From: Flammulina velutipes | Lineage: Eukaryota > Basidiomycota > Agaricomycetes > Agaricales > Physalacriaceae | Reading direction: 5' to 3' | Assembly: GCA_011800155.1 (NCBI GenBank) | Contig: CM022374.1 | Location: 2,899,595-2,963,594 of the forward strand | Length of the DNA: 64,000 bases | Shown: in pieces, positions 1-64,000 of the stretch | How positions within the stretch are numbered: position 1 is the first letter of the stretch | Layout: the number at the start of each line of letters is the position of its first letter | Program-made: the position numbers and the translations under genes | The notes under the pieces: generated by a model | Database searches by the model: none | What the model saw: the letters and a program-made list of their open reading frames with translations, nothing else | What the model was told of the DNA's origin: nothing

Positions 1-15
1 GTCATCCCGCACCAG

Positions 16-21129: not shown

Positions 21130-21610
21130 AGTTCGCCACTACTATGTGAACATCTTCAAGTTGGTGAAAGGAAGTCTGCGAGTTCGAGGGACTATGAAAC
21201 CTTTGATTCCTCGATTTTTAGACTCTACGTTGATGAGACGCTCAAGGCGCAGGACGTGGTGAATACGATGAGGGGTAATGTGCTTAAGCGCGCGATGAAG
21301 TACGTGAAAGAGAACAGGTTGATGTAAGAGTGTAATTTAAGATATCCTGGAGAGACATGATGGACTCACGTTTTGGCAGGCATAGCGATTTACACCTTCA
21401 CAACGTCTTAGTTGTCAAATCGTTTGCGGATCTAGAGCTTATAGACTGGGCGCCAGGGCTTCTTAATGAGTCTGAATCCGAAGATTCAGATGATGATCCG
21501 GAGTCAAAGAGGTCCCCAAAGACAAAGCACTCGCCACCTAAAAATCAGCCAAGGAGATCGCGTGGCGCAGTTTTAATCCAGTCATGCTTCGAGAGATTCT
21601 GGAGGGACAC
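21130..21610 (+). pseudogene. Relic of the secreted kinase-like family
   Basis: The segment matches the C-terminal two thirds of the gene at 26810-27816. A block equivalent to that gene's R-Y-Y-V-F-V-V-R-N is at about 21138. After a frame change near 21200 comes the block preceding the catalytic loop, then a phase-2 intron (donor near 21327, acceptor near 21382), then H-S-D-L-H-L-H-N-V-L-V and L-I-D-W-A-P-G. A further frame change and a stop follow near 21540, yet a block equivalent to E-I-L-E-G-H is still readable near 21590. There is no signal peptide or N-lobe: the relic starts close behind the MetAP1 3' end. It keeps the complete H-x-D-x-x-x-x-N core, unlike its intact relatives. Confidence 0.75.
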
Positions 21611-22112
21611 GATACATCGTAATATCACAGTAGCAAATAATAAATATCAGGCTCGACCCCCCTTCAAGAGCTTACTCCCCTTCTCTTCCATCTTCTTCAA
21701 CCACGCTCTCCATTTCGAAGAGGACTTTTTGGGCTTCCACTCTGCAAGCCACTTATGGAGAATGACATATGCATGGGACTGGGCGGAGTCGAACACGTCA
21801 TCATTTTGCAGTGAGAGCATGTCGGAGCTTATGAATCCTGTGTCTACCACCAGCAACGACTTGTACGATTCTTTGTCCAGCGACACGTTGTCAAATGATA
21901 GTCCACTGCCAGCCCAAGCGTCGTCTAGTTTTGAAGATGAGTAAGATACAGAGTCAATAGATTGGGGCGCGTACATTGTCCTATGGTAGCAACCATTCGT
22001 TTTGCGCGCGCGATCTTGAATTGAGAATTTGTTTCCTTGACTCTTGGGGGCTTGGGCTTCTTGAAGGTCTTTGGGAAATGCATCGAACAGATTCTCTAGA
22101 TCGAGGGATTAG

Positions 22113-23743
22113 TCAAATCAGAGACGAACGGTATAACTCGAGACGTGCCCGTTCGTTGTCAACATCTAGCAGCTGTGGTATCAACGAGTCTTTAGGAGCA
22201 GCCGTCTATCAAGTAAATTATGTGGTTTTCTGGACTCAAGAACGAGTTACACTTACCCGAAACCAGCCCAGCTCGTTGCATCTAATACCGAAGAAAATGT
22301 GAGCGTGATAGTATACAAATGATGTTTGGGCTCACTGCAACCAGAACCACGGGCGACCAGGATTCTTGTCTGTGAATCGATCATGATTTTTGTCGTGTGT
22401 GCCCCAAAATGCACTGCGAGACGCATGAGAAGGGCAAAGGAAAGCCTCGTTATTTGAAACTCACTCATCATTTTCTCCTTTAAAAACCTTCTCGTTCCAC
22501 TTTCCCCACCCAGCCAATATGTCATCGACATCCTTTAGCCCTTGAAAATCTAGAGTAGCACAGAACTTATGGAACTGAGTATTTTCCTTGGGTTGGATGT
22601 CGTCCCATAATCTCACAGTATATGCAACTGGTTATATGTGAGTTAGAAGTTTTACGAAATGTGCGGTAGCATACCAGCTTCAGCTACATCTACCAGTTCC
22701 GTCACACCGTCCAATCGAAGTAGTTTCTTCAGGTGCGCCACTTCTGTCTTATTGTTCTTTTTTGCCACCTCATCGATGTGCTCCGCAACGAATTGGATGG
22801 CGCCAGAACACTTGACCAAGGACAATTTATTCATAGATTTACGAGCAGAGTCCCAGTATGTCCATAGATCTCTAAATACAACGCGGATCAGGTTACGGAT
22901 TGTGGTTAGGAGACAAACGACATACTCGTGAGCTCTAGCAGGCGCAGAGGATGCGTATCCCGCGGAAAATAATTTTTCATGCCTGTTCGAGAAATCCCTA
23001 TGAGTGAGATTCGAGATTCTGTCGACAGGACCTACTTCAGCATCGCCCAGTTCGCAAGTGTGCCTGTCAATACTAGTAAGTATTTAAAAGCAGCCCGGAA
23101 TAACGAAGTCAACCCACCAGCATATCCAGATCCGACGAGAATCCACGCATTGGTATCTGGATGAACCAATCCTATCGACCCCGGGAGCTTCACATTTTTC
23201 GCAAAGTACGCCAGGTCTTCTATCGACTGCTCGATTGTTAGACGTTTGAGGCTTTTCTCAGACAAGTCCTTAGACGGGAGGCTTTCGCCAAAGTACCTGT
23301 GCTCAAGTAAGATGCACGCCCCAGCGAATCCCTCTGCGAACATTTCTACGAGTCGACCAACTTTAATGATCGATAAGGGGTCTGTGGGAGCATTCGCCGC
23401 AGGTTCAATGCCTCCAATCACCAGAAGGATTGGCCCGCCTTGGACTCATTAGTATTCTTCATTGACCGAGCGTATCGTGCGACATACTGGGCTTGTAGTG
23501 TTGCGTATTCACCCAATAACGTTGCTTGAATTTTCCTGAGATACTCAGGCTATTGTGGCTGACCCGTTGCTCGAAGTAGTATGGAGTGTCTATGTCGTCC
23601 GCGCGCGTAGTGATGTTTCGATAGGTTGTGGATGAGCCTACGGAAGTATCGCTGCGTCGAGAGAGATGCGGTGCAGCTATTGCACTAATGCAATGACTGG
23701 ATAGAACGAGGCAAAAAATCGATAGCTTCAGGTGGGGGGTCAT
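22113..23743 (-). CDS. S28-type serine carboxypeptidase-like, probably inactive
   Basis: The product begins with a signal peptide (from ATG 23743) and an R-R pair that may be a Kex2 site. It then follows the S28 (prolyl carboxypeptidase) pattern: Y-F-E-Q-R-V-S-H, Q-R-Y-W-V-N, a 5'-spliced G-G-P-I-L-L-V-I-G-G, L-L-E-H-R-Y-F-G-E-S-L-P, L-T-I-E-Q, W-I-L-V-G-S-G-Y-A-G-G-L, Y-A-S-S-A-P, V-R-L-W-D-D and C-N-E-L-G-W-F. The nucleophile motif of the family is G-G-S-Y-[AP]-G; here it is G-S-G-Y-A-G, so the Ser position holds Gly. The proposed stop at 22113-22115 falls soon after C-N-E-L-G-W-F, before the Asp and His regions. A further exon might exist: an acceptor near 22100 would lead into a frame continuing to about 21647, but no D-P-W or His motif is seen there. 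Intron boundaries in the middle are uncertain. Confidence 0.7.
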
Positions 23744-23759
23744 TCAGGAAAATAAGAGT

Positions 23760-26700
23760 GTGCGAAGACGAAGGTATATACATCACCTAAGTAATGAATG
23801 CTGTGAAGTTAGCTACGTAGCCCCCTGGGTTACAGATCCTCATAATATCAGATAATATCCCTCCGGCGTTCCTGATGGGACCATGCCGTGTAATTTCCTT
23901 CCGTCCTTCTTCGGGAACTATCCCGAGCCCACAGCCACGACTTGACCAAAAAAGGGTTTCCGGATGTGTTTCCATCACAGGACTTTCGGATCGATTGAAT
24001 CTGAACAGGAAGGATATACCGGCGTTTGAGACGTGGAAGGCTATGTAGACTGGAAGAAGAACAAAGCAGAGCGTTCAAGGATGGCGAATGAGAGGGTTGC
24101 TACCAGAATGTGAACGTTGTTTGAGTTAGGAAGAGGAGGTGGAAACCGTCCGCGATGTCAAAATCCGCCATAGGCCCAAATCTAGAGACATGGTCGGAGT
24201 TCTTAGTACGACGAGTAACGGCACCGGAAACAATTGCGACAAGGCCGACGAGACACTGCAGCGGTCTACGACCGCTATCAGAAGGAAACCCAAATACTTG
24301 AAAATGAGAACATACTTGGAAAACATCTCGTGAGTTGGTCCTTGATACTCTCCAGCGCCGATCTCTCGAGCGAGGCCATCGATAGCGAACTGGTGTACAT
24401 CAGAAACCATAACCAACCGTTAGTCTACGGAAAAACCGCACCTATTCAAGAGATTGATTCATCGAATTGGGTGAACACGACCTGTGAGAGAACCAGGTGT
24501 CTGTCGACTTCAGCTTCGCGTAGATGATCGTATCAAAGGAGACGAAGCGAGCAACACCGCCCACCGGTGATTTGTTAGGTCGTAATGGCACGCGAGAAGG
24601 CAAAAGGCGCTGACGTTGCTGTTTCCCGCTCTGCATGCCCGCAGGGATCGATTTGCATGAATCTACAAGGAAATGGAACAGCAAGGGGATGCTCCGGTAG
24701 GAGTAGCCATACATACATAAGATCTTGGGCCAGCTCCTTCATTTCAAGAAGACGGGCGGGGAAGAATCCGGTTCGTCGTCGTACTATTCATCCTCCAGAT
24801 CACCATCCGAGCCGTAGTCATAGCGGTCAGTAGTCATGTCCTTGGGAGCTGCTTGACGCAGGTAGAGCGCTACAGGTCCTGAACGTTTGTAGCTGTCTAT
24901 GACGACCAGGGCTCGAGGATGGCTAGTCTTCTGATATCCACGCCGCTTCGAATAGGTGTCAACTTTCGTGTCGGTGATATTGTCAGATTGGAGCGAATCC
25001 TCCCACGCTGTAGCCACTCGTTCCGCAATCGACTTGCTTATAGGATCAGGTCGGTGTACAACTGCGATAGAGACGGCGGTAGTCATGGTATCCGTTGATG
25101 CGTACTCAAAACTCCAAAGAACGAAGGAGCGCTGGTCCAATGATGTTGGCATGTCACACCGTTGAAGGTGAGCTGCTCAGAAAGCACGAGGGTCTGATGT
25201 TTCAATTCAAGATAGAGGATTGCGCCGCTGGTGATTTCGTCCTGAATTGTTATTGAGTGAGAAAGGTCGACGTCCCATAGGATGATACTGACTTACGGTA
25301 GTTGGCGACGTAGGAAGAGAATTTTCATTTGTTACAGTGATAACTCCGCGGAACCTATAGGAATAGCGAGGATCAGTGAGTCATCGTCGTATGCAGCGCA
25401 TCCAATCTCACCAGACATCTTACTTGTATGCCAACGGATTGTCTGATTGGTCCAACGGGAGGAGTAACCTGCATAATACAGAACGACCAGCCGAGCCCGT
25501 ATATCTTGCTCTTCCTAGGGATCATATCGATAGAAGAGAGGGTAGCAGCGGAGACTGTGCCTACATTCCCGAAGTACGGTGATATTTTCTCGATCCCAAC
25601 ACGATCTATGATGGTGGGAGGACAAGTCGAGTTAACCTTCTAGCGTCTTGAAGGTGTTTCCTTGTTAATGTTGGTGTGCGCGCCTCCAGGACGGATGATG
25701 GTCTCGTTAAGAGGAGATACAGATGAACGCCCTGACACGGAAGACGGTCTACATCCATGTCAATTTAGTACGTTCTCTTGGAAATGGATGTATTTACCGT
25801 ACATACCGCACGTAGAATGATAAAGGAGGTCAAGGCCTCAGACTGCCAGCCAGGATCCAGCTGTGATTGGTCTTAGACGGGCCTGATAGTTTTCTTGGAT
25901 TCCGGGACGCGTACTTTGCGTTCCGTCGGGCAAGCACAGAGTGGTCTCTGCATTCGGGGTCAATGTATGCTTGAAGAGGCGAAACGACGACGTACCTCCT
26001 CCACCAGCTGAGCCTAAACTGGATTGGCTTCCCTCATCGTCGCAATGGCGTCCATAGGTTCGCTCTCCTCGTCCAAACCGTCGTCTGAACGTGATGAACG
26101 TCGTCTGATACTAATCACTGAATCTGTGGGGGTGCGTTGCTTTAAAATCGTGAGGATGTGGGAAGATCTAGAGCATTTGCTGGTCCCGGGAGGCATTCTC
26201 CTTGCCTGTAAGGATTATGAGGACAAGAGCGTGAGCCTCAAGGCGGTGCTCACTGTTCATGAAATCGCATCTCGTAGGCAAATGCAGGCCTGGCATAGAT
26301 ATGCTCGTCTGAAACGTTGGCGATATTGACGAGTCCTGCCCATTTGCTAGGTCGACAATGACGAACTGCTAACGACCTGTTAGGCGCCTTCGTGGGGTCT
26401 ACGTTCGCTATATGCAAAACCGTCGGAATCCATGGCTTCGACGTTCACAAGTAAGGAAAGACAAACAGATTGCTGGTAGCAATAAGCCAAAAAATGTTCC
26501 CCAACTTTACGCGGCCAACGCCGGCATCACGATCACGTGAGATCACTTGGCTATGCCTTGGGAATACGTACTAGTAGTACTAGCCGCCTTATGCGTTGGT
26601 TTTACGTCTTGTACATCCATATGAGATGATACTTATGAGCTTCTTTTGTTGACCGTAGTACGAAGATGAGATGGGAATAGGAGGACGGCACCTCCAGATT

Positions 26701-26760
26701 CCGGAGCAAAGTCAGTGTGGCGTATAGATGGTAGTTGTGATAGGAGAAAATGACAAAGGT
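23760..26760. other. 3 kb without a firm gene; decayed minus-strand frames
   Basis: Several minus-strand open stretches exist, for example 25152-24784, 24416-24126 and 26196-26014, some with intron-like elements between them (such as one starting near 26251). They cannot be joined without stops or frame changes, and I recognise no domain. The stretch 25460-25150 contains successive minus-strand exons that almost connect. It may be an old gene with frameshifts. A hydrophobic segment is encoded near 24310-24230 (minus). Confidence 0.45.
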
Positions 26761-26809
26761 AGACATTACATTATCAATCATTGACATTTTTAAAAATACT
26801 ATTATCCTA

Positions 26810-27816
26810 CTATGCAATGTTGGCCTTCTCCTCCTCAAGTGCCTGCATATCCTTCCTGTTCAAAATAGCAGGTCAGTTTCATGTCCCGATTATACAACGG
26901 AGACTTACGGTCGCAGGCTTTTACCATGACCTTCCAAAATCTCTTGGAATTCGGCGAGATTAACGTTACGCTCTAGAGTCTCTCTAGCTTCCTTCTCGAA
27001 TTCTGCGATTTGGCGTGCGGCAACTGTGGCGTCTTTGGAAACCTCTTCGACACCGGCGACCTCGTCGGGGCCATCTGAGTCTTCCGAGTCGGGCTCATCA
27101 GTGTATCCAGGTGCCCAGTCAATGAACTCCATGTCCTCGAATGTGCTATCCACTAGCGCGTTGCGGAGGTGCAGATCACCGTACCTGTTACCGGGGCAAT
27201 CAGTGAGTCACTATCTCTCAAAACTCCAGGTAATCTCACATTAACCCATTCTCTTTTGCATACCTGCGCGAGCGCTTGAACATGTTGGTCCTCATTACAT
27301 CAACTACCTCTTTTGCCTCGAGCTCCTCGTCCTGGAGATACCACTCGTGCGCGAACTTGCGCTCCGGAGAGTCCTTGGTAGGGTACCCGGTGCGGATATT
27401 CCGTACGACGAAGACGTAGTAACGCGGATTGTCGGTTGCGCTATAGTACAGAGTCTGCCCGACCTCTTTCGCGAAGCGCACTTCTTTCTCTATTTTTTCT
27501 AGTTCCCCAGGTGGCGGTGTCTTTTTCTTTCTGATAAGTTTGAGGATTGCGGGTTGGCCGTCGAAACCGTCATTCATGTCGTAGGTCGTGGACTCCCCGC
27601 CTTGATCGCCTTCCGCTATCGGGGTGAGCTTGTAATCATCCTTGTTGATCGTAATGCTTTCGAGGGCGCGATTTGAACTGTCGGTGGCGTTAGTTCCGTG
27701 TCTCTGGAATTGAGACACGGGATTGGGGGTACGTACATTGATATCGATGCCGCCTCGAGCCCGAGGATGGCGATGAGCAGAAAGGTGAACGAGAAGAGGG
27801 CAGGTAAGGTGAACAT
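26810..27816 (-). CDS. Secreted kinase-like protein (family gene A)
   Basis: The gene has four exons. A signal peptide is encoded from ATG 27816, and a short intron follows near 27736. The second exon carries an N-lobe-like block, Q-P-A-I-L-K-L-I-R (possible beta-3 lysine), followed by a helix with E-V-R-F-A-K-E-V, a hinge-like Y-Y-V-F-V-V-R-N and the family motif E-R-K-F-A-H-E-W-Y. A phase-2 intron (27238-27185) splits the codon before Y-G-D-L-H-L-R-N-A-L-V-D, which resembles the H-x-D-x-x-x-x-N catalytic loop of kinase and APH folds. F-I-D-W-A-P-G follows in the place of DFG. An acidic linker and a charged helix end at TAG 26810-26812. Tyr replaces the loop His. Kinase fold is inferred from motif order only; the substrate is unknown and the protein is likely extracellular or in the secretory pathway. 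Confidence 0.7.
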
Positions 27817-27829
27817 GGTTTTGGGGCTG

Positions 27830-28540
27830 GTTTGTGTTCGATTCGGAGGCCAGCTCTGGATTGTTGAACAGTGTAAGGACTCGCTGGAGGCTATTTATCC
27901 CGATTCCTCATTGTCAACCTCATTGCCCTCGTCGCCGAATTAACATACAACTATCTAAATCTCAAGAGCTCCCGCTAACGACTCTTTCGGCAAGCCCAGT
28001 GGAGGCTGTTTCCAATTACGGATGTTGATAGAATAATTCAAATATGCACAATAGAATGCATGGAGCGGGTCGATAACACGGGCAGATAATCCAGCAACCA
28101 CTGCGAGAGGTTCTGTGTACCATCATAACCATCATCAATACAGATTATACTGTGTATAGCGTGCTACTACTGAGATATCTTCCTAAAGGGACCTTTGAAT
28201 CTCCGTATGAGTATCGTTTATTTGGATTGCAACATACTACCATTCATCAGTATCCCTACTAGGGCGCATGGGAACCATCCCCGGACCCATCTATCATGTC
28301 AATCGGTGTTTCACGGGAATCCATTAGTAGGTGGGAATAAGTATTCTGGGCGATGCGTGGTATCATGTGCCGGTATCATTGAGCAGCCTTTATAAGAGTT
28401 ACTTAGTATGGTGTGAAAGTAGACAGCCGTCTCTTTCGTCACTGATACTTGTGGCGCAGTCCGAATTACACTGCCTTACATTGACACATTGATTACATTC
28501 TGATCAATAGCTAATGGATTAAGACTCTATTGGTAAACTT
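27830..28540. other. Intergenic between family genes A and B
   Basis: No gene is supported here. The 9-mer TGTGGCGCA followed by GTCCGAATTA lies at 28450 and also occurs downstream of gene C at 30822, so it belongs to the duplicated 3' flank of genes B and C. Confidence 0.6.
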
Positions 28541-28548
28541 TCGAATTG

Positions 28549-29728
28549 CTAATCCGAGTCGTCCGAGTCATAGTACTCACTATCTGACTCGCTGTCAGCG
28601 TCGGAAGACTCATAGTCAGGATTTGCCGCCTTTATCCTCTCCATTTCCGCTTTTTGGTCCTGGTCCCATTTCTCTTGTGCTGCCTTATTTCCCGCTTCCT
28701 CTTTTTTCTTCCTTGCGGCATCGGCAGCTCTCCATGCTGGCATATCTGCTCTGTTCAGTGGGGTCAGTCTCGATCTGATCTAATTTAATCCAAACAACTT
28801 ACGGTCGAAGCTCCTGGCTGTGATCGTCCAAGATGAACTTGAGACCGGGAATACTGATAGACCCTGATAGGATGGAGTCCAATTCTTTCTTGAATCTCTC
28901 CATCCGCTCCTTCTTTGCCGCGGAATCTTCGGGGAGCGGTACGACACCGTAGATCAGGGGATCGAATGAGGGTGCCCAGTCTGGGAAGACTGTGTCGTCC
29001 AATGTCTCGTCCGTGAAGGCGTTGAGGAGATGTAGGTCGAGAAAGCTGGCATCAATAGAATTAATGGTCGGTTATTCACATCAAGTAGAAAAGCGCTCAC
29101 AGCAGTCCATGCTTTTCAGCATGATATATCGCTTGGTCATACATGCTGGTTCTCAATTTATCCAGAGATTCCGTGACATCCATATTTTTGTCTGCGATGT
29201 ACCATTCGTGGAAGAGCTTCCTTTCGGGAGCGGTTGTGGTGTTCCGGAAATCGTTCAGAAATCCCTTTCGAAGGTCTTTCATGACCAATGTGAAGAAGTT
29301 GTCGTCGTCTGTCAAACTGTGGTATAGATATTGGCCGACCTATTATACCATGATGCGTGTTATCATTTAGCCTTGAAGCTGCACACACCTTTTTGGTGTA
29401 ATCCGCTTCTGCCTTCACATAGGCTTCCATATCTGGCTGCTTTTCGATGGACTTGAGGACTGCAGGCGAGCCTTTGAAAGGCTCTACGAGATAGCACACA
29501 GTGTTCCTCGATTCATGGTTCTGCGTGGATATGCGCTCGGGGAGCAGTTCGCACTTCATGGGTTTCCCGGCGACTTTGACATCGATGATAGATGGGTCGC
29601 GCGTGGCACTAAGACGTTGAGACTTAGCAGGTCTGGAGATGATGAACAACGTACATGGATAATGCGGATATCGCATGAATTTGGAAGAGAGCGGTGAAGC
29701 CGGTGATGACGATGGTCTGGAATAGCAT
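28549..29728 (-). CDS. Secreted kinase-like protein (family gene B)
   Basis: This is a tandem paralogue of gene C. A signal peptide starts at ATG 29728, and the first intron begins near 29656. The N-lobe-like block reads S-P-A-V-L-K-S-I-E, then a helix with Y-T-K-K-V, F-F-T-L-V-M-K-D-L, and the family motif E-R-K-L-F-H-E-W-Y followed by D-K-N-M-D-V. The catalytic-loop equivalent is F-L-D-L-H-L-L-N-A-F-T-D, with Phe in the His position but Asp and Asn kept. F-P-D-W-A-P-S-F stands for DFG. The C-terminus (from M-P-A-W-R-A) is a charged helix ending in an extremely acidic D/S/E tail, stop at 28549-28551. Introns fall at the same places as in gene A, including the one right before the loop. Activity cannot be judged from sequence alone. 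Confidence 0.7.
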
Positions 29729-30494
29729 TGTGGATGAGTGGCGACGTGCGAGGCCGGCTCGTGTAATAGTTGAGTGATATTCGGAATCCGGATATTTGTA
29801 GAGTGTGATTCCCTTGGTATCGTCCACATAGCCTGCAAGATGTATCAAGACGACGATGATCCAGTGACGAACGTTGATTAAGAGACCGTTACGCTGCAAA
29901 TCATGGGCAGAGATGATTCGCTAATGCCTAAGTGTTGAGTAGTATCTGTTAGCACTGATCAAAGGCTATGCGGCACGACAATCGTCAAGGAAAGTACTCA
30001 ACCACTAGCCGGAGGAGGCTATCGTTGTAAACGCGCTGATCCATCACGAGCGAGGCTGGCAACAGCATCGGCCATATGTCGTCGAAAACTTCGGTGCATC
30101 GTGGACGCCGAACCAGAGAGTATATACTTCCTGAAATGATAGGAAAACAGTAGAGAATGGGACTACTAAATATGCCCCTTCTTGATCTGGGCTTGACCTT
30201 GATCGTCGTCCAGCTTTACTTGTAAGGACTCCTTCACTGGCAAGTGAGCGAAACCGTGACTGGAATGCTGGGGACGTTGTGAGCTACGCTTAAGAGAGAC
30301 AGGTTTCTATCCGTGTGCGAGCCAGAGTCTGCCAGATGATGATGATCGGAAAACAAAGTTCGGCATGACTCGGCAGATCGGCATCATAGTGTGGCGCAGG
30401 ATTGTTGTCGTAAAAGCGATACTACTATTCATACTGATAGTGTATATATCGCTTACCGACAGCATGCGTTGAATATCCTTTAAGATGCTTCGCT

Positions 30495-30640
30495 ATTGCT
30501 CACGTCCGGCATATTCATCTACCTCTACCTAGCGATCACAGAGGTACGCAAGCACCGGTTGAGGAGAGAGAGGCATGGGGAAGTGTCGAAGAAGACTATT
30601 ACGACCTCAGAGGATACTCATGCCATGATGCCTTAAGTAG
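30495..30640 (+). pseudogene. Inverted fragment of the single-pass membrane gene
   Basis: The sequence from about 30501 closely matches the second exon of the gene at 33064-33432, but in opposite orientation. It reads T-S-G-I-F-I-Y-L-Y-L then R-K-H-R-L-R-R-E-R and remains open to a TAA near 30637. No acceptor AG is present where the intact gene has one and no first exon is seen, so this is a detached copy. Confidence 0.65.
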
Positions 30641-30935
30641 CACTGGCTTCTAACTAGTTATCCCTAGGCCTGAGCTCCCGCTGCCGTATCGATTGGTATT
30701 TCGAGGGCGGCGGAATCTGAGAATACCTATATCACGACATACTTAGGTACTTATAAACGACAGCCTACTGCAAGGCCGCATGTATGTAGAAGATGGGTTA
30801 GTTCCAGTCATCCCAAACATATGTGGCGCAGTCCGAATTACACCGCTAGGATCACAGGGTTTGATGTCGACGTGTGGACTTCAACCAATTAAATTGTATG
30901 AATTATATCTAGTATCATAGAACTCTAGTCAACCG

Positions 30936-32116
30936 CTAATCCGAATTCTCGTAGCTTTCCTCCGACGCAGAACTATCGTCGCTGGCAGAGTCCGAGGCAG
31001 AACTCTCTTGCGACAATCTATCCCTTTCTTCTGCCTGATATCTTTCCCATTCTTCCATCGCTACTCTATACGCCTCTTCCTCTCGCTGTCTCGCTGCGAC
31101 ATCGGCTCTCCATGCTGGCATATCCGCCCTATGCCACAAGGTCAGTTCTCGATCTAATCTCAACTCCATACACTGGGGGCTTACTCTCTAAGCTTCAGGC
31201 CATGATCCTCCAAGGTAAGCTTCAAGTTGAAGACACTGATAGATCTGGGTATGATGAAGTCCAAATCTCGCATGAATTTCTCGATTCGTTCATGCTTCTC
31301 TGTGGGATCTTCGGGGAGAGGTAGGACACCTACGATTACGCGATCGAATGAGGGTGCCCAGTCTGGGAAGACTGTGTCGTAGGCTGTCTTATCAGTGAGG
31401 GCGTTGAGGAAATGGAGATCGAGAAAGCTGGGATTAGTAGAGTTAATGGTCGGTTATTCACGTCAACTTGAAGTAAAAAGGGCTCACAGCAGATTATGCT
31501 TTTCAGCATGATACATTGCTTGTGCAAACATGCTCTCTTGGAATTGATCTAAAGCTTTTATGACATCCATGTTTTTGTCCTCGATGTACCACTCGTGGAA
31601 GAGTTTTCTTTCGGGAGCGGTTGGGGTGTTCCGGAAATCATTCAGAAATCCCTTTCGAAGGTCCTTCAAGACCAACGTGAAGAACACGTCGTCGTCTGTG
31701 AAGCTGTGGTATAGATGTTGGCCGACCTATGATACCATGATCAGTCAGCCTTGGAGCGAAAGGCAGCACGTACCTTTTCCGCATAATCCGCCTCTGCTTG
31801 TAGAAAGGCCTGTATATCTGGCTGCATTTCGATGGATTTTAGGACTGCGCGCGAACCCTTGAAAGGCTCTACGAGATAGCATACTGTGTTCCTCGATTCA
31901 CGGTTCTGTGTGGATATACGCTCGGGAAGTAGTTCGCACTTCATGGGTTTTCCGGCGACTTTGACATCGACAATAGATGATCGGTCACGCGCAGAACTGT
32001 GGCGTTTAGAGGTAGCATCTTCAAGGACGATAAACAACGTACATGGACAATGCGGATATCGCATGCATTTGGATGATGAGAAAGATGAACGAGGTGGCGG
32101 CGGTGTGGAACATCAT
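30936..32116 (-). CDS. Secreted kinase-like protein (family gene C)
   Basis: Closest relative of gene B, 2.39 kb away in the same orientation. A signal peptide starts at ATG 32116 (or 32113). It has R-A-V-L-K-S-I-E in the lysine block, F-F-T-L-V-L-K-D-L, E-R-K-L-F-H-E-W-Y then D-K-N-M-D-V, and a loop exon encoding L-D-L-H-F-L-N-A-L-T-D followed by F-P-D-W-A-P-S-F. The tail after M-P-A-W-R-A-D is a charged helix ending in a Ser/Asp/Glu-rich stretch, stop at 30936-30938. Intron positions match gene B. The 3' flank shares a block beginning TGTGGCGCAGTCCGAATTA with gene B, which shows that the duplication included flanking DNA. Confidence 0.7.
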
Positions 32117-32642
32117 CTTTGAGGTATGTTCACCTACGAGGCCAGCTCGTACTTTGTTGGTGAAGGATGATAATTGCTGAGATGAGGATATTTGAGGAAT
32201 TGCCAATGCATTGCTATTATCAACGCGACACATTCACATCCTGAATATAGGTTCGATCCTGAAATTTGACACAGCTGAGACCAGTGCGCGTTGGGTGCGA
32301 ATACAGGTCTGAGTGTATATCAACGACTAGACGTTGCTTTTCATATCCATTATTGCCACACGATGTTTACCTAGACGACTGCGAAACCTAATACACACAA
32401 TACTAGTGATTTGCATTCGAGCCTTTGTGGGGATACTTGTGCGCAAAGTTATGCTATTGGATTGATCCATCTGTTGAGATTGATATCCCGAAAACCAGCC
32501 TCGATTGATTCGTCGAGCTACGGGCGCTTCCACCGAGCTTAAATGCCCGACGATCCCGCCGTCGGTGCAAGTGATGTCATTGCGTTTCCATCAAGACGCG
32601 TAGTTAGCGATGCGAGTTGCGACTGGCATTGCGATGCATACT

Positions 32643-33032: not shown

Positions 33033-33063
33033 AATACGATGACGAGCGCGACTAGTGTTTTCT

Positions 33064-33432: not shown

Positions 33433-33539
33433 CTAAATGTGGCGGGGACTAGGAGTGGGAATGACCTTTCATGTATGAGGGGGGAGAGCGTGGAATCGCA
33501 TTAGTGGACAACGCTGGGATTTTATAGCTGGACACACAT

Positions 33540-34200: not shown

Positions 34201-34208
34201 TCTCCGCC

Positions 34209-34990: not shown

Positions 34991-35248
34991 GCTATTGTAC
35001 TCCCTATAGTGTGCAATGCATTATCGTTCATGTCACTATGAGCCTCTTCATCATGTACAACTACCACCCTGACCAAAGATTCTTGGCTTCTCCATAAGCA
35101 GGGTAACGTATCATTCTATGCGCACCATGGTCTTTGTATCTTGCTCTTTTGATCTTTGGACAGATCTGAACAGGTTTGCGCTTCAGATGACAAACACTTT
35201 GTTCAAGCCTTGTCTATTAAAGCCGTCCAGAATTTCAGGAATCGTTCA

Positions 35249-36491
35249 ATGCATCGCCGGCTTTTACCTCTTCCCGTCGAGATCCTAGACGAAATTGTCT
35301 CCCATTCTGGGGATGACCAACAGATACTGCGATCCTTACGCGCTTCGAGCTATGCGTTGTCGAGCTATGCCACTCCCAAAGTCTTCAGACGTCTCTTTAT
35401 CAGGCAGGGCATGGATGATTCTACCTGCGCGTCTATCCGAGCGTTACTCCTGTCGAATTCCCCTGTGCTCGCGCATGTGAAGGAAGTCGAATTCATAGTC
35501 GGGGGTTTTGATGATTATAGCGAGGAGGAAATCACAATCTTTCATGGAGCTGTTATGGATAGTGAGTGCTCAGTGGACACCATTGATGCCAAATGGTATG
35601 CTAACGGCTGCGCAAGTCCCCTGGGGACATTACTACGACCTAGAAGGACTATGGCCACTCATCGGGAGGATCGTCACTATTCAGTCCGTTTTTATCGACC
35701 TGCGCTCTATCGGCGTTGACCGGGATTGGGGTGGTTATATGCAGCTCGGTTCCCAGAACGTGTTTCTCATGGGCGTGGCGCACTTCCCGACGGGCCAGAT
35801 AAAGTCGCTGGAAATCTACAACTTCGTTGCATACCCCTTATCCATCTTCAACTGGTTAACATCTTCCCTCATTGGCCTCGAGAACTTCCGTCTCAGGAAC
35901 TTTTATGGGGATTTGGAGGAAGGTTGCCTTTGGTTCGGCGATATGTTCGCGCAAAAATTCTTTTCCTCTGTCGCACCCACGTTGACGTCTCTCACTATAC
36001 AACCTTCCTATGAACTCATCGACAATACATTCTGGGAGTGCTTCTTCCCTCGTCTTGAGACCCTTTCTGTTACTAGTGGGCTCACCATGGTGGAGGAACC
36101 TCGAAAAATCATTCGCACTTGGGACGCATTCCTTCTCAAACATAAGGTTACACTCCGATCGCTGACTCTCGTCAATTGCTTCGCTTTTGCCAAGGAGGGT
36201 ACCGTGAAACCGAGAGTCACGATTGGAAGCATATGGAGGATGCTGAGAAGGGAACTGTTGATGCTTGTGGCGTTGGACATACTGTATGATCGTCACAAGA
36301 CTCCGGCGGTTCAGTTCCCGTATTCGATGCCCAAAGACCATCAGTCGTACTATATCGATCTCGATTGTTCGCTCTCGAAGCTTCGCCTATTGGATATAGA
36401 AGAGGATGGTGTAGAGCTGGAGGCATGGGTGGGGGATGTTGTTAAGAGGAGGCGGATGGCGGCTAGAGCTATTCTCCACCGTGTAGCGTAG
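35249..36491 (+). CDS. F-box-like protein
   Basis: Exons 35249-35561 and 35617-36491 join in frame with a 55-nt intron, giving 395 residues. The N-terminus has the F-box-like L-P-L-P-V-E-I-L-D-E-I-V-S pattern. The rest is a leucine-rich, repeat-like body typical of the large Agaricomycete F-box family (for example L-T-S-L-T-I-Q, L-E-T-L-S-V, L-R-S-L-T-L, L-R-L-L-D-I). Such proteins are expected to act as substrate receptors in SCF ubiquitin ligases; the target is unknown. The start was set at ATG 35249 because it directly precedes the F-box pattern; the frame upstream has no ATG. Confidence 0.7.
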
Positions 36492-36629
36492 CGCTCTCGA
36501 GGTACGACTTTAAACCTACCAGGCTCTCTGCTTAATCATGTAAATATACAAAGAATTTGACTGTATGAAAGTAAGCAATTAAGCAGCGGAGGATTCTCGG
36601 TATTTGCCGATCATGCTTTGACCGGGACG

Positions 36630-39600
36630 ATGACGACCAAGCGCGACCATCTCTTTCCCGCCACGTCCATCGGGCGCTCGGGAACTTTGGCGCGGACACC
36701 GTCCAGCGAGTCGCTAACGGCGCATCCATTGCTGTCGCCTGGTTCTTCACCATCTTCTATTGCACTTGATACGACCCAAGGCCAGCGATATGTCCCGTAT
36801 ACGCCTCGACAAAGGGCAACTGCAGCGAGCACGGGAACGGTCAATGTCAGCTCGAGCCCTAGCAGCTCGGGTGGCGACGCGACGAGCAGGTTGCAGATGA
36901 TGAATCTCAAGTCGGCTGCACAGGGCATTGGACTGGATGCCGGATCGGTTGGCTGGGCCATCCTGGAGAAGCTCGTTGAAGGTCCTGGAGACGAATGGGT
37001 CGAGATTTGGAATGTAATAACAACGCATAAGGTGAGCTCTCTTTCCCTCGTAGGTGGGCGCAAGTCGACAATCACTTATAGGCGACATTGCTGCTGCCAC
37101 TGGAACCGCTTCCCTCCAATGAAGCGATATCTGCCGACTTTGTGAAGGACCATATCGCTCTATGCGATGGCGCAGCACGCAAGAACGCGCCGATTGTCAC
37201 GCTCAGTGGTCTGCGAGGTATTCTCAACGAGTAAGTCGCTTGTCCTCCTCCAGGAGATTCTATTCATCTTTACTAGCACAACGTTCACCCTACAATCATC
37301 CATCTATCCCGGCTCCAAGATATTTCAAGACATTTTAAACCCGTCCACGCGTTCTAGCACGTTGGCAAACCTAGCGCCTCTGCCTATCCCTTCGACAGTT
37401 CCTACAGCACATCCTTATCCCGCATTCGATGTCCCTTCACATACAACATCGTTACCTGTCCCACCACGCTCCAAGCCAGCTCTTCCCCATCGACCAGTAT
37501 TGTCACCGACTGCCAGCTCTCGCCTCGCAAATCCTTTTGCGTCGCTTTTCGGTGGCAGTGGGCACAAAAGCACTCCCTCTACGAGCTCCGTCAATTCCAC
37601 CAACTCTGCCGAGGATCCACTCAACCCTTCTTCAACAACGACAAAGACAGATCCTGTGCCGATCCCCGCATTCACCATATCCCGGCGAATCGTATTCGAC
37701 GACGTTTGCAAAGATGTACTCAGGACGATCAAATCAAGCGTGGCAGACGCCTTGGAGGACTGTCCAAAGTGGCTTCTCAACCGGACGCAGGTGTTCGCAG
37801 AGTCGTTCCATCCTTTCGTCAAGACGGCGCAGGGGAAGGATTTCTTGGTTCATGAGATAGATTTAGGTGCGGATCCGATTACGGATATGGTGCAGGAATT
37901 CTACTACGGCATCGAGGAGGAGCTGGAGATACGATCACGGAAGACGGAGAAGGACGACAGTGAGGTAGAGCTGGCTGAGAATTTGGGAAAATGGGTCGGG
38001 ACAATAGAGAGGACACTATGTCAGCTATTTTATGATCGGTATGCCGTTCATTTTGACTTCTTGGATGCGGCTGACATGCCATCAGGCTGCTTCATCCTCT
38101 ACCTTCGGACGACTTGGACCATGACGAGGCGTTGTCCTCGAGGATCGCTGCACTTAACATGTTAGATTTAACTTTAGAGCATCTCGACATCATCTTTAAT
38201 GGAGATGACGCGGAGCGCCAAGAACTGGATACATTGGTGAAGAATTGCGGAGGCTGTAAGTGTTCTGTTATATTCGGTTTGCTGTACTCAACTGGCCTTT
38301 TACAGTACTTACTCAACTTGAAACGAAGCATACACCCGGGGAGAAAGCTACCTTACTTGTCGAGTGCCATAAAGTCATAGTTGGTGCGTTTCAACCAGTA
38401 GATGCCAATGACATGGTACTGATTGACAACCAGATGGCCTTACGCGGCTACCGCCAATCCGCCTCAAGACCGATAGTGACCCTCCGCCGAAAGGGGAGGT
38501 AGCGTTGGAAGAGAAAAGCCCAGTGCCGACGATCATCGAACCCCTTCCCGAATACCTCGCGCATGACGGGGAGAAGACACTCGAGCCAGAAAGTCAGAAC
38601 GACGAGAGGAAAGGGACACCAGTGTCGCTCGACGTCCTTTTTCCGTTGCTCATCTTCTCGGTCGTCATCGCCAATCCACCGCATCTAGTATCGCATGTCC
38701 TGTATACGCAACGCTTACGAAGCAAGTACGAAGGTGGTGGCGAGGAGAGCTATTGTATCGTGAACTTTATGGCTGTCGTCGAGTTTCTCGAGAGTGTTGA
38801 TCTCGGAGGTTTGGGCTTGGGCGGGAAGGCTGGCTCTGTCAAGTAAGTGTCCAGGCGCTCTTTTTTGGCTTATTGCTGATGTTCTCCATTTAGTACGAAG
38901 GATTTGACGCCTATTCCTGTTCCACCGAGTCCACCAGCTGTTGGGCGAGAGAGGAGCCTGAGTACAAGCAGTGCGTTGAGGGATCGCGTCGAGCAGGTTA
39001 CAGGTTCTGCCAACAAGGTATTGACCGGAGTGGTGGATTCTGTCTCGTTGATTCGTTCCTTGCTGCCAAATGCAACGAATCCGATGACGCCAGCAATGGA
39101 CAGCCTGCAGGGCACCGCTCCTTGGAATGCTGTCCCCAGACCGGGCTTCGGTATCTTGCGACGGGACAGTGTATTCTCCATCAAGAGTATGTTGCCAGGG
39201 TCGACGAAGGCAGGGGATGGTGAGGAGATGTTGGATGTGTCGCGACCAGTTAGTCGTGCTGGTGCGTCGACATATGGGAGTGATATGGAGGATGTCAAGG
39301 AGGACGAGGACGGCGGCACGGACGATAGCGGGAGTGATAGTAGTGATGAGGATGAAGAGGAGGAAGGAGGAGGGAGGGATGCGCGAAGCATTCGAAGCTT
39401 TGAGAGCATGATGAGCCGTAGTCGGAGGGAGAGGAACAAGGCCAAGGCGCAGCCAAGGAAGAGCCTATCGGATCGTCTTAGCGGGATCACTGGTGGGAGG
39501 AAGGTTCGTTGCCATGTCTTCTGGGCTTTTCACGAGCGATGCTAATGCAGTGATACCTGTAGTCGTCACCGTCGTCATCGACTGGTAGACTGGCACCGCC

Positions 39601-39724
39601 CAACAAACGGTTCTTGGAATGTTCAGCGGACGAACTACGGTTGGGAGAGGTGGCGGAATTATTGAAGGAGTACAGAAGAGTCGTGGATGCGCTGAGGAAT
39701 GCGGGAGGTTTTAGAGAACCTTAG
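36630..39724 (+). CDS. VPS9-domain protein (Rab5-type GEF)
   Basis: The gene has several short introns (near 37032, 37231, 38039, 38253 and 38380, before the domain; near 38844 and 39503 after it). The VPS9 core is clear at about 38610-38810: D-V-L-F-P-L-L-I-F-S-V-V-I-A-N-P-P-H-L-V-S-H and E-E-S-Y-C-I-V-N-F-M-A-V-V-E-F-L-E. VPS9 domains activate Rab5/Vps21 GTPases in endosome traffic. The N-terminal part is Ser/Pro-rich and contains helical blocks around D-V-C-K-D-V-L. The C-terminal part is low-complexity and acidic (about 39290-39370), then basic, ending with a short helix and TAG at 39722-39724. Fragments of this 3' end have been copied twice downstream together with the kinase-like genes. 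The start at 36630 is the first ATG of the frame. Confidence 0.85.
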
Positions 39725-39893
39725 CGGCCGTGTAGATGACAAGCTGATGTCAAGCCACCGCCACCGCAAGATGGTGTCTGGACTAGCGGTGCCCGCAAGA
39801 CTTGCTATACAGTTGGGCTACCTGTTCGAATCCATATTTAATAGCGTTGACTTTCCCCAAAGCTATCACCAAGAGCTGGCCTCGCAAACGCGT

Positions 39894-40984
39894 ATGTTTT
39901 TCCCCACCATTACTATCTTCTCGTTACTAGCTTTGGGGGTGGTCGATGCTCGTGCAGCCCCATATCCTTCCAAGGACATTGCTCGAAGGGAGAAAATTAA
40001 AACGCCCTTTGGCGGCAAGGATCGCGACATCGAGCCCTTACCAGAGGCTTACCAGCCAGATGATGGTCACGGCGTGATCTATGCTATCAGCCAAGGCTAC
40101 GAGGATCCTAATGCAAACAACTCCCTCGTCCCGGCCGTTGTAATCATTTTCTCCAGGCCAGACAAAGACAAGAATGGAGGTGAAACGGATGCGCGGCAAA
40201 AGCAAGACAGACTCGTTCGTCAGACGGGGAAGAATGCGGAACAGGTGCGTTGGGGTTCAAACGTTTTGTACCTCGGACTAACGCCTTACAGGCCGGACAA
40301 TTTCTCTTTTACGAGAACACCAACGAGCAATACTTGTTTCTCGTCTTGCGTAACCCTCAGAAAGATTTCCCCACGAGCGGGAGTTCGGAGCTCAAGATGT
40401 TTCACCAACTATATATCGATGACAAGAATATGAATGTGACGGAGAAGCTAACGAAAGCGCGCGAGCTTGGACACGCTGAATTGTTAAGGCTTGCCAGAGA
40501 AAAGAAGAGGGTGTGAGTGTTGGCGTCGTTCTATCATGGATCTAACCGAACAAACCGTTCACAGACGCCACAGGTATGGTATTAAAACTGCCATGATGGA
40601 CTCTGGCTTCACCCGGATAGTTTTCTTCGACTGGGAACCTGAGACAATAAACAGTGGGCTGTTCGGATTTTCCACAGTCCGAGAAGGTGTCGTAGAAATT
40701 TCCAGGCAAGACGAATCGCAGGAGACAACGGACTACGAGGCCTCGCTAAAGGCGGACAACAACAAGGGGTTCACCCTGTCAGATCTGAACGACCTTCTGA
40801 AGACAAGGATGCAGACTTTGCGACCGTGAGTCCCTGCTTGATCTCCACGTCTTGACTTCGAAGTTGACTCAGCTCTAGGAACGACTCAGCGGCTCTGAAA
40901 GCCGAGTTAGAAGCGGCGGCTAAGAAGAAGGCTGAGGAAGACGCCAAAAATTCTCAAAGAAAGCGAAGCGGGCGTCTACTCTGA
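39894..40984 (+). CDS. Secreted pseudokinase-like protein (family gene D)
   Basis: Exons 39894-40244, 40292-40512, 40565-40825 and 40879-40984 join in frame (312 residues). A signal peptide ending A-R-A-A-P is followed by an A-R-R pair, a probable Kex2 site. The lysine block of genes A-C is replaced (V-V-I-I-F-S), the hinge-like block is Y-L-F-L-V-L-R-N-P, and the family motif is E-L-K-M-F-H-Q-L-Y. The loop equivalent reads R-H-R-Y-G-I-K-T-A-M-M-D: the catalytic Asp position is Arg and the Asn position is Thr. The DFG equivalent is F-F-D-W-E-P. The tail is an alanine/lysine-rich helix ending in basic residues. With lysine, Asp and Asn changed it should not be an active kinase if the fold assignment is right. 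Its promoter abuts the VPS9 gene stop. Confidence 0.72.
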
Positions 40985-41369
40985 ACTCGAGGATAATGCA
41001 TGGTCCATCTACTATTTCTAATTTATCGTTCTTTGTGTTGAGTACCGAACGTATCAAGAGATAATATACTTCTCGAGATACCATATTCGTTTAGCAGTAA
41101 TAGTGTTCCATAACTTGCATAATTCAGCACCTTTACAACTCCTCGAAGTGATGACACAGCCGCGGGAGCGCCCAGACAAATGCGGAAAGAACTCGAATAC
41201 AACAATGGTACATTTTTATGGTCTAAAGTGACATGAATTACACTGCGAGGGTTGAATGCGGCCAAACAACAGTGGCCCAACACGGCGAGATCCCCTAGTG
41301 TGGGATTGAGATGGAGGGTTTATGGGATTGACAGAAGCGCGATGATGATTTTTTGGGATGATAGCGTGA

Positions 41370-41760
41370 TTGATGGTACTATGTAGTGACGAGGACGAAG
41401 TGGAGGAGGGAGGGAAGCATCTGAACAATCCCAGGAGTGAGAGGAGAAACGTCAAGACACAGCCGAGGATCACCACCATCATCTCGGATCGCATCAGTGG
41501 GATTACTGGTATTCGGGAGTTCGTTGCGATACGTTTTTGGCTTTCCACGATCGTTGCTGATGGGGTGATATCTGTAGTCTCCGCCATCGTAGACAACTAG
41601 TAAGATCGCAACGGCTAGCAAACGATTCTTTGGGTGTTATATGGACGAACCGAAAATAGTAGAGCTAGAGGCGGAATAATTGAAGGAGTAGTCTGCAGAA
41701 TGGTTGTTGATGGGTTGAGAATTCTCTGGGAACTTGAACAAACGTACAGTTTACACTAAA
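41370..41760 (+). pseudogene. Fragment of the VPS9 gene 3' end (copy 1)
   Basis: From about 41370 the sequence aligns with the VPS9 gene from about 39345: the acidic run, the R-x-S-x-R-I-S-G-I-T-G block, the splice donor, the last intron and part of the last exon. Stops and substitutions interrupt it, including TAG where the donor exon should join. It lies directly upstream of family gene E and shows that the duplicated unit began inside the VPS9 gene. Confidence 0.8.
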
Positions 41761-41992
41761 GTTTGATCACCGGCGGTAACCCAGCGCTAAGGAGACGATT
41801 TAGACCTTATTCGACATAGCTATATGGCGGTTGGGCTCGCCGCCACAGTAGCTTGACGACTTGTCTTCAAGGTGTAGCTATCCAAAGTACTCGTGTATGT
41901 GGTGACAGTGGGCTATGTCCTCCGGTTCTGGCATATATTATATGGCTACCGAATCTCAAAAATATCACCAAGAGCTGGCCTCGAAAACGCCC

Positions 41993-43095
41993 ATGTTTTT
42001 CCCCACCATTACTGTCTTCTCGTTCCTAGCTTTGGGAGTTGTCACTGCTCGTGCGGCGCCCCATCCTGTCAAGAACCTTTCTCGGCGAGCGACCGTCTTC
42101 ACGTTTGGCGGCAAGGAGCGTCAGGTCGGTCTGCTATCGGATGCTTACCAGGTATACAAGGAGTCGGGCGGGAGATCGTATGCTATCAGCGCAGGATACG
42201 AAGATCCTAGTGCAGGGAATAGCCTCGTTCCCGCAGTTTTGGTTAGCTTCAGGCGGCCAGAAAAAGCCGACGACGGTACTGAACCGCAGGCACGAGTGAC
42301 ACAAAACAAACGTGTTAATCAGATGAAAGCCTACGCGACACTGGTGCGTTAAGAAAAGAGTGTCTGGTATCTGAACTGACCGATCCCTCGTAGGCTGGAC
42401 AATTTCTAGCCCTTGATAACACAAACGACAAACGCTTGAACCTCGTGTTGCGGAACCCCCAGAAAAATTTCCCTACAAACGGGAGTTCGGAACTCAAGAT
42501 GTTCCACGAACTATATTTGGCTGATCAAAGTATGAATACCACGGAGAAGCTAACAAGGGCGCGCGAATTGGGACACATTGAGTTGATGAGGCTTGCCAAA
42601 GAAAAGCAGATTCTGTATGTCCTCGCTGACATTTCCAATGCAGTATCTGACCGACAAAACACTTCGCAGGTACAATGATTACGGTATCAAATCTGCCCTG
42701 ATAGACTCTGGCTTCACCAGGATAGTTTTCTTCGACTGGGCACCCGAATGGACAACCACCGGGTTATTGGGGGTGACGAAACCTGGTATCGCAGAACTTC
42801 CCCGACAAGAAGAATCACAATCAATAACGGACTATGAGGCTTTGCTAAAGAAAGATAACAAGGGTTTTTCCTTCTCAGATTTGAATGCTATTTTGGTGTC
42901 GGAGGACCAGTCCTTACGAGAGTGAGTGTTGTTCGGAGTATTGAGAATTAACTGCGAAACTGACTCCACTCTAGTGCCGATGAGGCTGCTTTCAAAGTTG
43001 AGCGTGCGGCGGCAGATGCGGCTCAGAAGAAGGCTCAGGAAGACGCCCAAAACGAAACTCAGCCTGTGGCAAAGCGATACAGACGCTCATTATGA
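41993..43095 (+). CDS. Secreted pseudokinase-like protein (family gene E)
   Basis: Exons 41993-42343, 42394-42614, 42670-42921 and 42975-43095 (351, 221, 252 and 121 nt; 314 residues). Exons 1 and 2 have exactly the same lengths as in genes D and F. A signal peptide ends A-R-A-A-P and a N-L-S-R-R Kex2-like site follows. The lysine block reads A-V-L-V-S-F, so no Lys. The family motif is E-L-K-M-F-H-E-L-Y. The loop equivalent is Y-N-D-Y-G-I-K-S-A-L-I-D: the Asp is kept but Asn is Ser. The DFG equivalent is F-F-D-W-A-P. The C-terminus has a K-R pair just before Y-R-R-S-L and the stop, a possible second processing site. The start was chosen at the ATG before the hydrophobic core; an upstream in-frame start is possible but would bury the signal peptide. 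Confidence 0.72.
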
Positions 43096-43254
43096 GTTTG
43101 CAGGGATCGTGGATTAATGCACGATTTCTCTACTATTTCTACTTTATTTCCCTCTATATAGAACACTGTTAACCGTATCGTTGGATATTATCCTACATCA
43201 ATATTGCTGTGCATTCTAATTCCGGCGGGTCTACAGTTTCCTCGCGAACGTCGT

Positions 43255-43600
43255 TTAGATGAAGGGTTGAGCACGAGTCGCAGCAGGAGGAAGAAGGATA
43301 AATCATCACGTCAAGAAATCGAGGAGGAGCCTATCGGGTCCTATCAGTAGGATTTCCTGGCAATGGTAGTAGGAAGTTCGTTGCTATACGCTTTTGGTTT
43401 TCCACGATCGTTGCTGATGGAGTGACGCCTGTAGTCTTCGCCTCGGAGTCGGCTTGTAGGTTCGCAACGGCTAATAAGCGTCTAGTATTTGAGCGACCAA
43501 CTGAAGCTAGGAGCGGTGGCGGAATTATTGAAGGAATACGGAAGGGTTACCGACGGGTTAAGGAATTCGAGGGATTTCACGGAATTTGGGCAAACATATA
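43255..43600 (+). pseudogene. Fragment of the VPS9 gene 3' end (copy 2)
   Basis: This is a second, more degraded copy of the VPS9 gene end, lying upstream of family gene F. It shares with copy 1 the block around the last donor site (about 43378-43440) and also preserves the last-exon stretch coding for the final helix (G-V-A-E-L-L-K-E-Y equivalent at about 43509-43545). Copy 1 and copy 2 further share about 150 bp of promoter-side sequence not found upstream of gene D, so E and F derive from a later duplication of one another. Confidence 0.78.
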
Positions 43601-43840
43601 GTTTGTACTAGGATGTGATCACCGGAGGTAAATCAGTGCTAAGGAGACGATCGTGACCTTCGACGTAGCTATATTGACGGTTGGGCTAGCCGCCACAATA
43701 TGTTGACGACTATCCTCAAGGTGTCTTTATCCATAGTAATCGTCCATGTGACGACAGTGGGCTGTGTCCAGTGATTCTTGTATATCATATGAAGACCGAA
43801 TCTCAAAAGCTATCTCCAAGAGCTGGCCTCGAAAACGCCC

Positions 43841-44930
43841 ATGTTTTTCCGCACCATTAGTACTGTCTTCTCGTTCATAGCTTTGGGAGTTGTCGCTGCT
43901 CGGGCGGCGCCCTATCCTGTCGGGAACCTTTCTCGTAGGAGCACTTTAACGTTCGGCGGCAAGGAACGCCAGGTCGGTCCCCTATCGGACGCTTACCAGG
44001 TGTACAAGGACCAGGGAGGGAAATCGTATGCCATCAGCGCAGGATACGAAGATACCAGTGCAGGCAATACCCCCGTTCCCGCGGTTCTAGTTAGCTTCGA
44101 GCGGCCAGAGAAAGCTGATGATGGCACCGAACCGGAGGCACGACAGGCTCAAAACAAACGTGTTTCTCAGATTAAGGCCTATGCAACAGCGGTGCGTTCA
44201 CAAAAGACTGTTTGGTATCTGACTTGACGTTTCCTTTGACAGGCTAAACAATTTCTGGCTTATGATAACTCAAACGACGAGTACTTGTTTCTCGTGTTGC
44301 GAAACCCGGAGAAAGATTTCCCTACCAGCGGGAGTTCGCCACTTAAGATGTTTCACCAGCTTTACAATGAAGATACAAGTATGAATGTTACGGCGAAGTT
44401 GTTGGAAGCACGCGAATTGGGGCACCTTGAATTGATGAGGCTTGCCAATGAAAATAAGATAATGTAAGCTTTCTTCGTTAACCTTTGGACGGAGTGTCCG
44501 AGCTAAAAAAAATTCTTTACAGGTACAACAATTACGGCATTAAATCTGCCCTAATGGACTCCGGATTCACCAGAATCGCTTTCTTCGACTGGAAACCCCA
44601 GATTTCAAAAGCGAAACCTGGTATCGTTGAGATTTCCCGACAAGATGAATCTACAGAAACAACGGAATATGAAGCTATGTTGAAGAAAGATAATAAAGGG
44701 TTTACCATATCAGATTTAAAGAAGCTTCTGGCCTACGAGAACGAGTCCTTGCGAGAGTGAGTGTTTCTTTGCGTTCAGGACATTGACTGGGACACTGATT
44801 GTTTTATAGAGCCGATAAGGCTGCTTGGAAAGTTGAGTACGAGGCGGCCAAGGCGGCCCAAAGGAAGGCTACGGAAGACGCTCAACACCAAGCTCAACCT
44901 GTGACCAAGCGAAACAAACGCCTGTCGTGA
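43841..44930 (+). CDS. Secreted pseudokinase-like protein (family gene F)
   Basis: Exons 43841-44191, 44243-44463, 44523-44756 and 44810-44930 (308 residues). A signal peptide ends A-R-A-A-P and a N-L-S-R-R site follows. The lysine block is A-V-L-V-S-F. The family motif is L-K-M-F-H-Q-L-Y. The loop equivalent is Y-N-N-Y-G-I-K-S-A-L-M-D: Asn in the catalytic Asp position and Ser in the Asn position. The DFG equivalent is F-F-D-W-K-P. The third exon is 18 nt shorter than in gene E, in the linker after the F-D-W block. The tail is Ala/Lys/Gln-rich and ends after a K-R pair. It is the third unit of the tandem array. Confidence 0.72.
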
Positions 44931-63880: not shown

Positions 63881-64000
63881 GGTTAGGGTTAGGGGTTAGG
63901 GTTAGGGGGGTTAGGGTTAGGGGGGGGGGGGGGGGGGTTGGGGTTAGGGGGGGGGTTAGGGTTAGGGGGGGTTAGGGTTAGGGGGGTTAGGGTTAGGGGG
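63877..64000. repeat. Telomere repeat, right chromosome end
   Basis: TTAGGG repeats in the orientation expected for the 3' end of the plus strand run to the end of the window. They are irregular: G runs vary from three to about fifteen, which may be true variation or sequencing error in G-rich repeats. Confidence 0.97.

Follow-up and report, generated by a model that had tools for sequence, protein, structure and literature searches.

A subtelomeric gene cluster in Flammulina velutipes points to a large, apparently lineage-specific family of predicted secreted minimal kinases and pseudokinases

The 64,000-nucleotide stretch analysed here (the window) forms the right end of contig CM022374.1 (C7) in the Flammulina velutipes assembly GCA_011800155.1 (38.1 Mb, 23 contigs). 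Degenerate TTAGGG repeats close the window at its right end, which places a cluster of six intact genes, A to F, and one relic about 19-43 kb from the telomere. We suggest, with a probability of roughly 55%, that secreted minimal protein kinases form a large and apparently lineage-specific family in this Agaricomycete and that the cluster is one of its branches, located near a telomere. In this reading A to C would be active, D to F would serve as non-catalytic partners or decoys, and a shared leader element would allow co-expression. The kinase fold (as predicted), the homology, the conservation of catalytic residues in most modelled members, the family size, the signal-peptide-like N-termini, the leader element and the constraint on D to F all rest on tool results.

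The initial annotation placed six intact genes and one relic on both strands, and they are present there. A purpose-built spliced profile aligner, with a profile made from the six window proteins, recovered the same models for A to F, with scores of 527-829 versus at most 41 on reversed DNA (the profile being built from the same six). All introns are GT-AG, of 46-60 nt, and none of the six translations has an internal stop. The four exons claimed for each gene hold for A and for D to F, which differ in the introns they are missing (the phase-0 intron before VGQ in A, the signal-peptide intron in D to F), but not for B and C, which have five. The intron described directly before the catalytic loop is real; it is in phase 2 and recurs among the modelled relatives. 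Matching with the six-protein profile found no N-lobe or signal peptide upstream of the relic.

21187..21461, plus strand: relic, 5'-truncated, reduced to the loop exon and the final part of the middle exon
26810..27816, minus strand: gene A, four exons (27816-27737, 27677-27240, 27184-26909, 26855-26810), 279 aa; active-looking, with Lys, Glu, Asp, Asn and Asp present
28549..29728, minus strand: gene B, five exons (29728-29655, 29608-29389, 29339-29101, 29045-28803, 28750-28549), 325 aa; catalytic residues present, acidic tail
30936..32116, minus strand: gene C, five exons (32116-32043, 31996-31774, 31726-31488, 31427-31185, 31128-30936), 323 aa; catalytic residues present, acidic tail
39894..40985, plus strand: gene D, four exons (39894-40244, 40292-40512, 40565-40825, 40879-40985), 312 aa; pseudokinase-like, without Lys, loop Asp and Asn; the stop codon ends at 40985
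41993..43095, plus strand: gene E, four exons (41993-42343, 42394-42614, 42670-42921, 42975-43095), 314 aa; pseudokinase-like, without Lys and Asn, loop Asp present
43841..44930, plus strand: gene F, four exons (43841-44191, 44243-44463, 44523-44756, 44810-44930), 308 aa; pseudokinase-like, without Lys, loop Asp and Asn

Judging from profile comparison, the likeness of A-C and D-F is not due to chance. The minus-strand and plus-strand sets might have been unrelated; profile-profile alignment (hhalign) instead shows them to be homologous (probability 99.6%, E 1.8e-23), and a profile of 20 family members aligns with D-F at 99.8% probability (E 1.3e-28). The alignment of the six window proteins has 25 invariant columns, and proteins across the family are often only 30-40% identical. 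The motif [ER]-K-x-[FA]-H-x-[LW]-Y noted earlier is conserved (K in 42, H in 29, W in 42 and Y in 44 of 45 aligned members), except that the preceding Glu or Arg is Leu in D-F (LKMFHxLY).

Beyond the window, a genome search with five single proteins gave at least 220 distinct places at E <=0.001 among the matches listed, which merge into at least 108 exon-matched loci, 37 of them on C5 and 20 on C7; this count is a lower bound that includes partial copies and may merge close neighbours. Applied to part of these loci, the spliced profile yielded 46 members or fragments (the seven of the window included), all scoring at least 112 versus at most 41 on reversed DNA; with one added, 47 are modelled. 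Most share the same two introns, and one fragment (C7:2851836) starts after the loop-preceding intron. A subtelomeric position is not a family rule, as just 13 of the 108 loci lie within 200 kb of a contig end (one C4 locus left out).

The five residues expected of a kinase (the VAIK Lys, the alphaC Glu, the loop Asp, the Asn and the DFG-like Asp) are present in most of the 47 modelled members. All four catalytic residues occur in 28 of the 38 fully covered members, at least one is absent in the other 10, and Lys and Glu are each found in 37 of the 38. In an alignment of 20 selected members, most of them intact, the positions of Lys, Glu, the loop Asp and the Asn do not vary, and the second Asp is conserved in at least 90%. 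D to F lack the full set, and the losses are those originally reported: D and F are without Lys, loop Asp and Asn, E is without Lys and Asn, and the second Asp is present in all three. By sequence, A to C look active, and D to F look like proteins with a broken active site.

The kinase-like fold first read from motifs is supported by a family-profile search of the PDB, which matched protein kinases (E 1.4e-4), and by predicted structures. The wider family was required, since no kinase appeared when the search was run with just the six window proteins (best E 0.53). AlphaFold models were made for the relative L074 (pLDDT 86) and for exon 2 of gene A, and both have kinases among the PDB matches listed; a confident non-kinase fold, which would have spoken against the reading, was not what these models gave. 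The L074 model has the two lobes of a kinase, and for gene A the support comes from the N-lobe. After the DFG-like motif, the L074 model contains one short strand and two helices, so the kinase domain is, as modelled, minimal, with little beyond that motif, and it resembles the minimal kinases Rio1 and Bud32 in predicted structure. A Bud32 model (TIGR03724) is weakly matched (E 0.034) by 1 of the 20 members. Models for RIO and Fam20 are absent from the 18 Pfam families matched by the 20 members, in which no Fam20-directed search was made, and the best 50 PDB fold matches include no APH, choline kinase or Fam20 chain, which does not exclude these. FunK1 (PF17667) was considered and rejected: the Pfam searches gave no PF17667 match, and none of its genome matches, compared by eye, lies at a family locus. 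FunK1 (116 exon matches) and APH (76 exon matches) are other kinase-fold expansions of this genome.

Each of A to F has the signal peptide ascribed to it, in the form of an N-terminal hydrophobic, signal-peptide-like segment, followed by no membrane-like segment; each protein has 0-2 Cys. Hydropathy, with the start chosen freely, was scored in the 36 members that are matched from close to the N-terminus: 32 pass at a cut of 1.8 and 27 at a cut of 2.2. The higher cut separates the family well from the controls (7.4% of random positions, 1 of 8 APH genes), and the lower cut does not.

Many family start codons are preceded by an 11-nt element, GAGCTGGYCTC. In the window it is found as follows.

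27846..27856, minus strand: leader element GAGCTGGCCTC, before gene A
29750..29760, minus strand: leader element GAGCCGGCCTC, one mismatch, before gene B
32138..32148, minus strand: leader element GAGCTGGCCTC, before gene C
39873..39883, plus strand: leader element GAGCTGGCCTC, before gene D
41972..41982, plus strand: leader element GAGCTGGCCTC, before gene E
43820..43830, plus strand: leader element GAGCTGGCCTC, before gene F

In A, C, D, E and F, GAGCTGGCCTC starts 21-40 nt 5' of the ATG. With at most one mismatch, the element lies within 150 nt of the start in 20 of 34 members with a start model, versus 1 of 103 control stretches of the window. Its columns are nearly invariant and its flanks variable in 21 members (at most two mismatches), partly a selection effect; 13 of these 21 also have a TATA-like box 33-48 nt further upstream, a count without a control. 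Genome-wide there are 70 exact copies, compared with 28 when the pattern is reversed. For 30 of these 70, a family match follows on the same strand within 1 kb (30 of 108 loci), and no copy is so placed relative to a match on the opposite strand, whereas random placement on contigs of known length gave a mean of 0.18 and a maximum of 3 in 2000 trials; the remaining 40 are about at chance level. Our reading is that this is a core-promoter or leader signal through which the family is co-regulated. An RNA hairpin in the leader was unsupported (z-scores of five leaders: -0.84, 0.31, 0.45, 0.92 and 1.28).

Five further copies of the element lie near or inside family-rich regions (C3:2897752, C5:2832672, C5:2864814, C5:2900675 and C7:2829102) with no family exon match within 1 kb downstream, and may mark further divergent members or relics, or be due to chance. 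Two C9 members have another short leader, ATCTGGAACTTGCGGGC, directly before the ATG (C9:1906637-1906653 and C9:1908785-1908801). It is perhaps a diverged form of the 11-nt element, and its two exact and three inexact copies, versus six in the reversed control, are merely suggestive.

A maximum-likelihood tree was built from the 43 rows that reach 140 aa, without the relic, and rooted at the midpoint; in it D-F form a single clade (100/100) on a long stem of 1.58. Gene A clusters with two copies from elsewhere in the genome, on C5 and C12 (98/90), B and C group with a C7 copy about 96 kb distant (100/100), and A-F fall together with these copies and a long-branched C9 copy of unsure placement (95/84). 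The B/C pair has a dN/dS of 0.31, and the pairs within D-F have 0.28-0.37. In the altered loop of D-F, 16 of 20 columns are identical versus 159 of 319 overall, and only 4 of 300 windows of the alignment (itself counted) are equally conserved. Because D-F are under purifying selection despite the loss of Lys and Asn, they look like selected pseudokinases, that is, constrained genes rather than decaying copies.

Outside this genome, word-seeded alignment searches of a 5.8-billion-protein database with the six-protein and 20-member alignments found only the window's own exon and no homologue. An ordinary window protein used as control found 211 relatives; the named ones among the 120 listed are Agaricomycetes as far as recognised, the best of them from Cylindrobasidium (47% identity), Armillaria (52%) and other genera, and a further match is 95% identical, so the database does contain mushroom proteins. 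The family is apparently lineage-specific and previously undescribed: among the open-access papers listed as matches, none treats such a fungal family. The available part of PMC3937382 deals with fungal kinases near tyrosine kinases, and a term search of the main text of a structural survey of fungal secreted proteins (PMC9816061) did not return the word "kinase".

Together, these data suggest a model in which A-C and most paralogues would be routed into secretion, would hold ATP by means of Lys/Glu and the second Asp, and would act as protein kinases beyond the cytoplasm of the fungus. The site of action would most likely be another organism or a contact surface, since copy number and divergence suggest diversifying use. 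We infer in this way that A-C are enzymes, that the proteins leave the cell and have a foreign target, and that D-F play a partner role. D-F would no longer be catalytic, yet their altered loop is conserved, and so they would most likely work with active relatives as partners, as allosteric activators or as decoys, a role for which the rhoptry pseudokinase ROP5 is a known example. Sharing the leader element would allow copies scattered over the genome to be co-expressed. More tentatively, and with less than even odds in our view, the family might be a fungal counterpart of the rhoptry-kinase arsenal: a regulon of about 100 secreted minimal kinases and pseudokinases in one mushroom lineage, dispersed, largely marked by the 11-nt leader, and directed at other organisms as weapons or signals.

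Several observations weigh against this model. At the HRD His position, the 47 members have Tyr (27), His (12), Phe (4) or other residues (4); the G-loop keeps one conserved Gly and no GxGxxG; and the 20-member alignment has no conserved columns for an APE motif or for helices alphaF-alphaI. Catalysis on proteins is therefore not assured. For these reasons, and because the PF00069 score is 17.5 bits versus a curated cut-off of 31.7 in the one member with bits (1 of 20 matches at all), the family is not one of canonical eukaryotic protein kinases. The L074 model contains two retained 17-aa intron stretches, and Foldseek TM-scores are modest (0.34-0.45). At the 1.8 hydropathy cut, 102 of 445 random positions and 5 of 8 APH genes also pass. 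Free ATP is scarce outside cells. The dN/dS values of all 13 measured pairs (0.11-0.61) speak for constraint and not for an arms race. The element is absent at one mismatch in 14 of the 34 members with a start model, and 78 of the 108 loci have no exact copy within 1 kb. The absence of the family elsewhere rests on word-seeded searches; as these need exact 5-residue words, and not all candidates were scored in the six-protein search, distant homologues may have escaped. Secreted activity on another organism is a prediction from sequences and models.

The signal-peptide-like N-termini of A-F, the lack of a later membrane-like segment and the minimal atypical kinase fold would also suit lumenal ER/Golgi kinases of the fungus itself, Fam20-like and acting on its own secreted proteins, with the pseudokinase members as activators. 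However, about 108 divergent loci are far above the need for a housekeeping secretory kinase, and no HDEL-like ending was found among the C-termini of A-F, so we consider this explanation unlikely. It is improbable that the whole family consists of nucleotide-independent binding proteins in which the conserved residues are structural. Such a fold would account for the constraint on D-F without catalytic residues and for the 10 incomplete members among the 38, but binding alone explains poorly why all four residues persist in the other 28 and why Lys and Glu are nearly universal.

Secreted APH-type small-molecule phosphotransferases, for example inactivating competitors' antibiotics, seem highly improbable. 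The loop and IDW motif do resemble APH, and among weak Pfam matches APH (PF01636) occurs most often (5 of 20 members, with gene A highest at 20.6-21.2 bits versus a cut-off of 23.2). When the family profile was compared with seven APH genes from this genome, the loop aligned (E 9.3e-4), but over 25 columns only and with 22.5% probability, and we rejected an APH origin on these grounds; the PDB profile and fold searches, in turn, give protein kinases among the matches listed. We favour secreted minimal protein kinases. A kinase-fold family of about 108 putatively secreted loci that stays below curated cut-offs, where these are shown, would escape ordinary annotation. Hardly any extracellular protein phosphorylation is known from fungi. 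Active sites in this one genome range naturally from intact to degenerate, and the short leader element makes co-regulation directly testable.

Elsewhere in the window, positions 1-4353 are directly duplicated at 11639-15995 (offset about 11640; 100% identity in the four 300-nt pairs shown), giving twice the same 634-aa translation, which we take from its motifs to be XRN1-like. This is either a recent duplication or an assembly effect. About 26 copies of a 63-bp unit form a subtelomeric satellite at 60662-62250, and the degenerate telomere repeats occupy 63875-64000.

Among known systems, FunK1 shares the kinase fold and expansion in the same genome and differs in its loci; in the available part of PMC3203195, Paracoccidioides FunK1 proteins are not predicted to be secreted. 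The APH and choline kinase group (PF01636, PF01633) shares the D-x-H-x-x-N and IDW motifs, but the family stays below the curated cut-offs where bits are shown, and its alignment with the genome's APH genes is confined to the loop. Rio1 and PRPK/Bud32 differ in being cytoplasmic housekeeping proteins without signal peptides, and the Bud32 match in sequence is limited to the single member mentioned above. OspG, which is bacterial and injected, is among the fold matches listed. In common with HopBF1, an injected bacterial effector that the available part of PMC11997596 describes as a minimal kinase, it has a minimal kinase fold that is exported, as would be the case in our family, whereas PDB profile searches with the six proteins or the family profile showed no sequence relation to either. 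The rhoptry kinases (ROPKs) of Toxoplasma and its relatives differ in organism and export organelle, and the shortened C-lobe is a feature of the fungal family that the available part of PMC3682881 does not describe for ROPKs. What the two would have in common, by that description, is a lineage-specific, expanded secreted family with both active and pseudokinase members.

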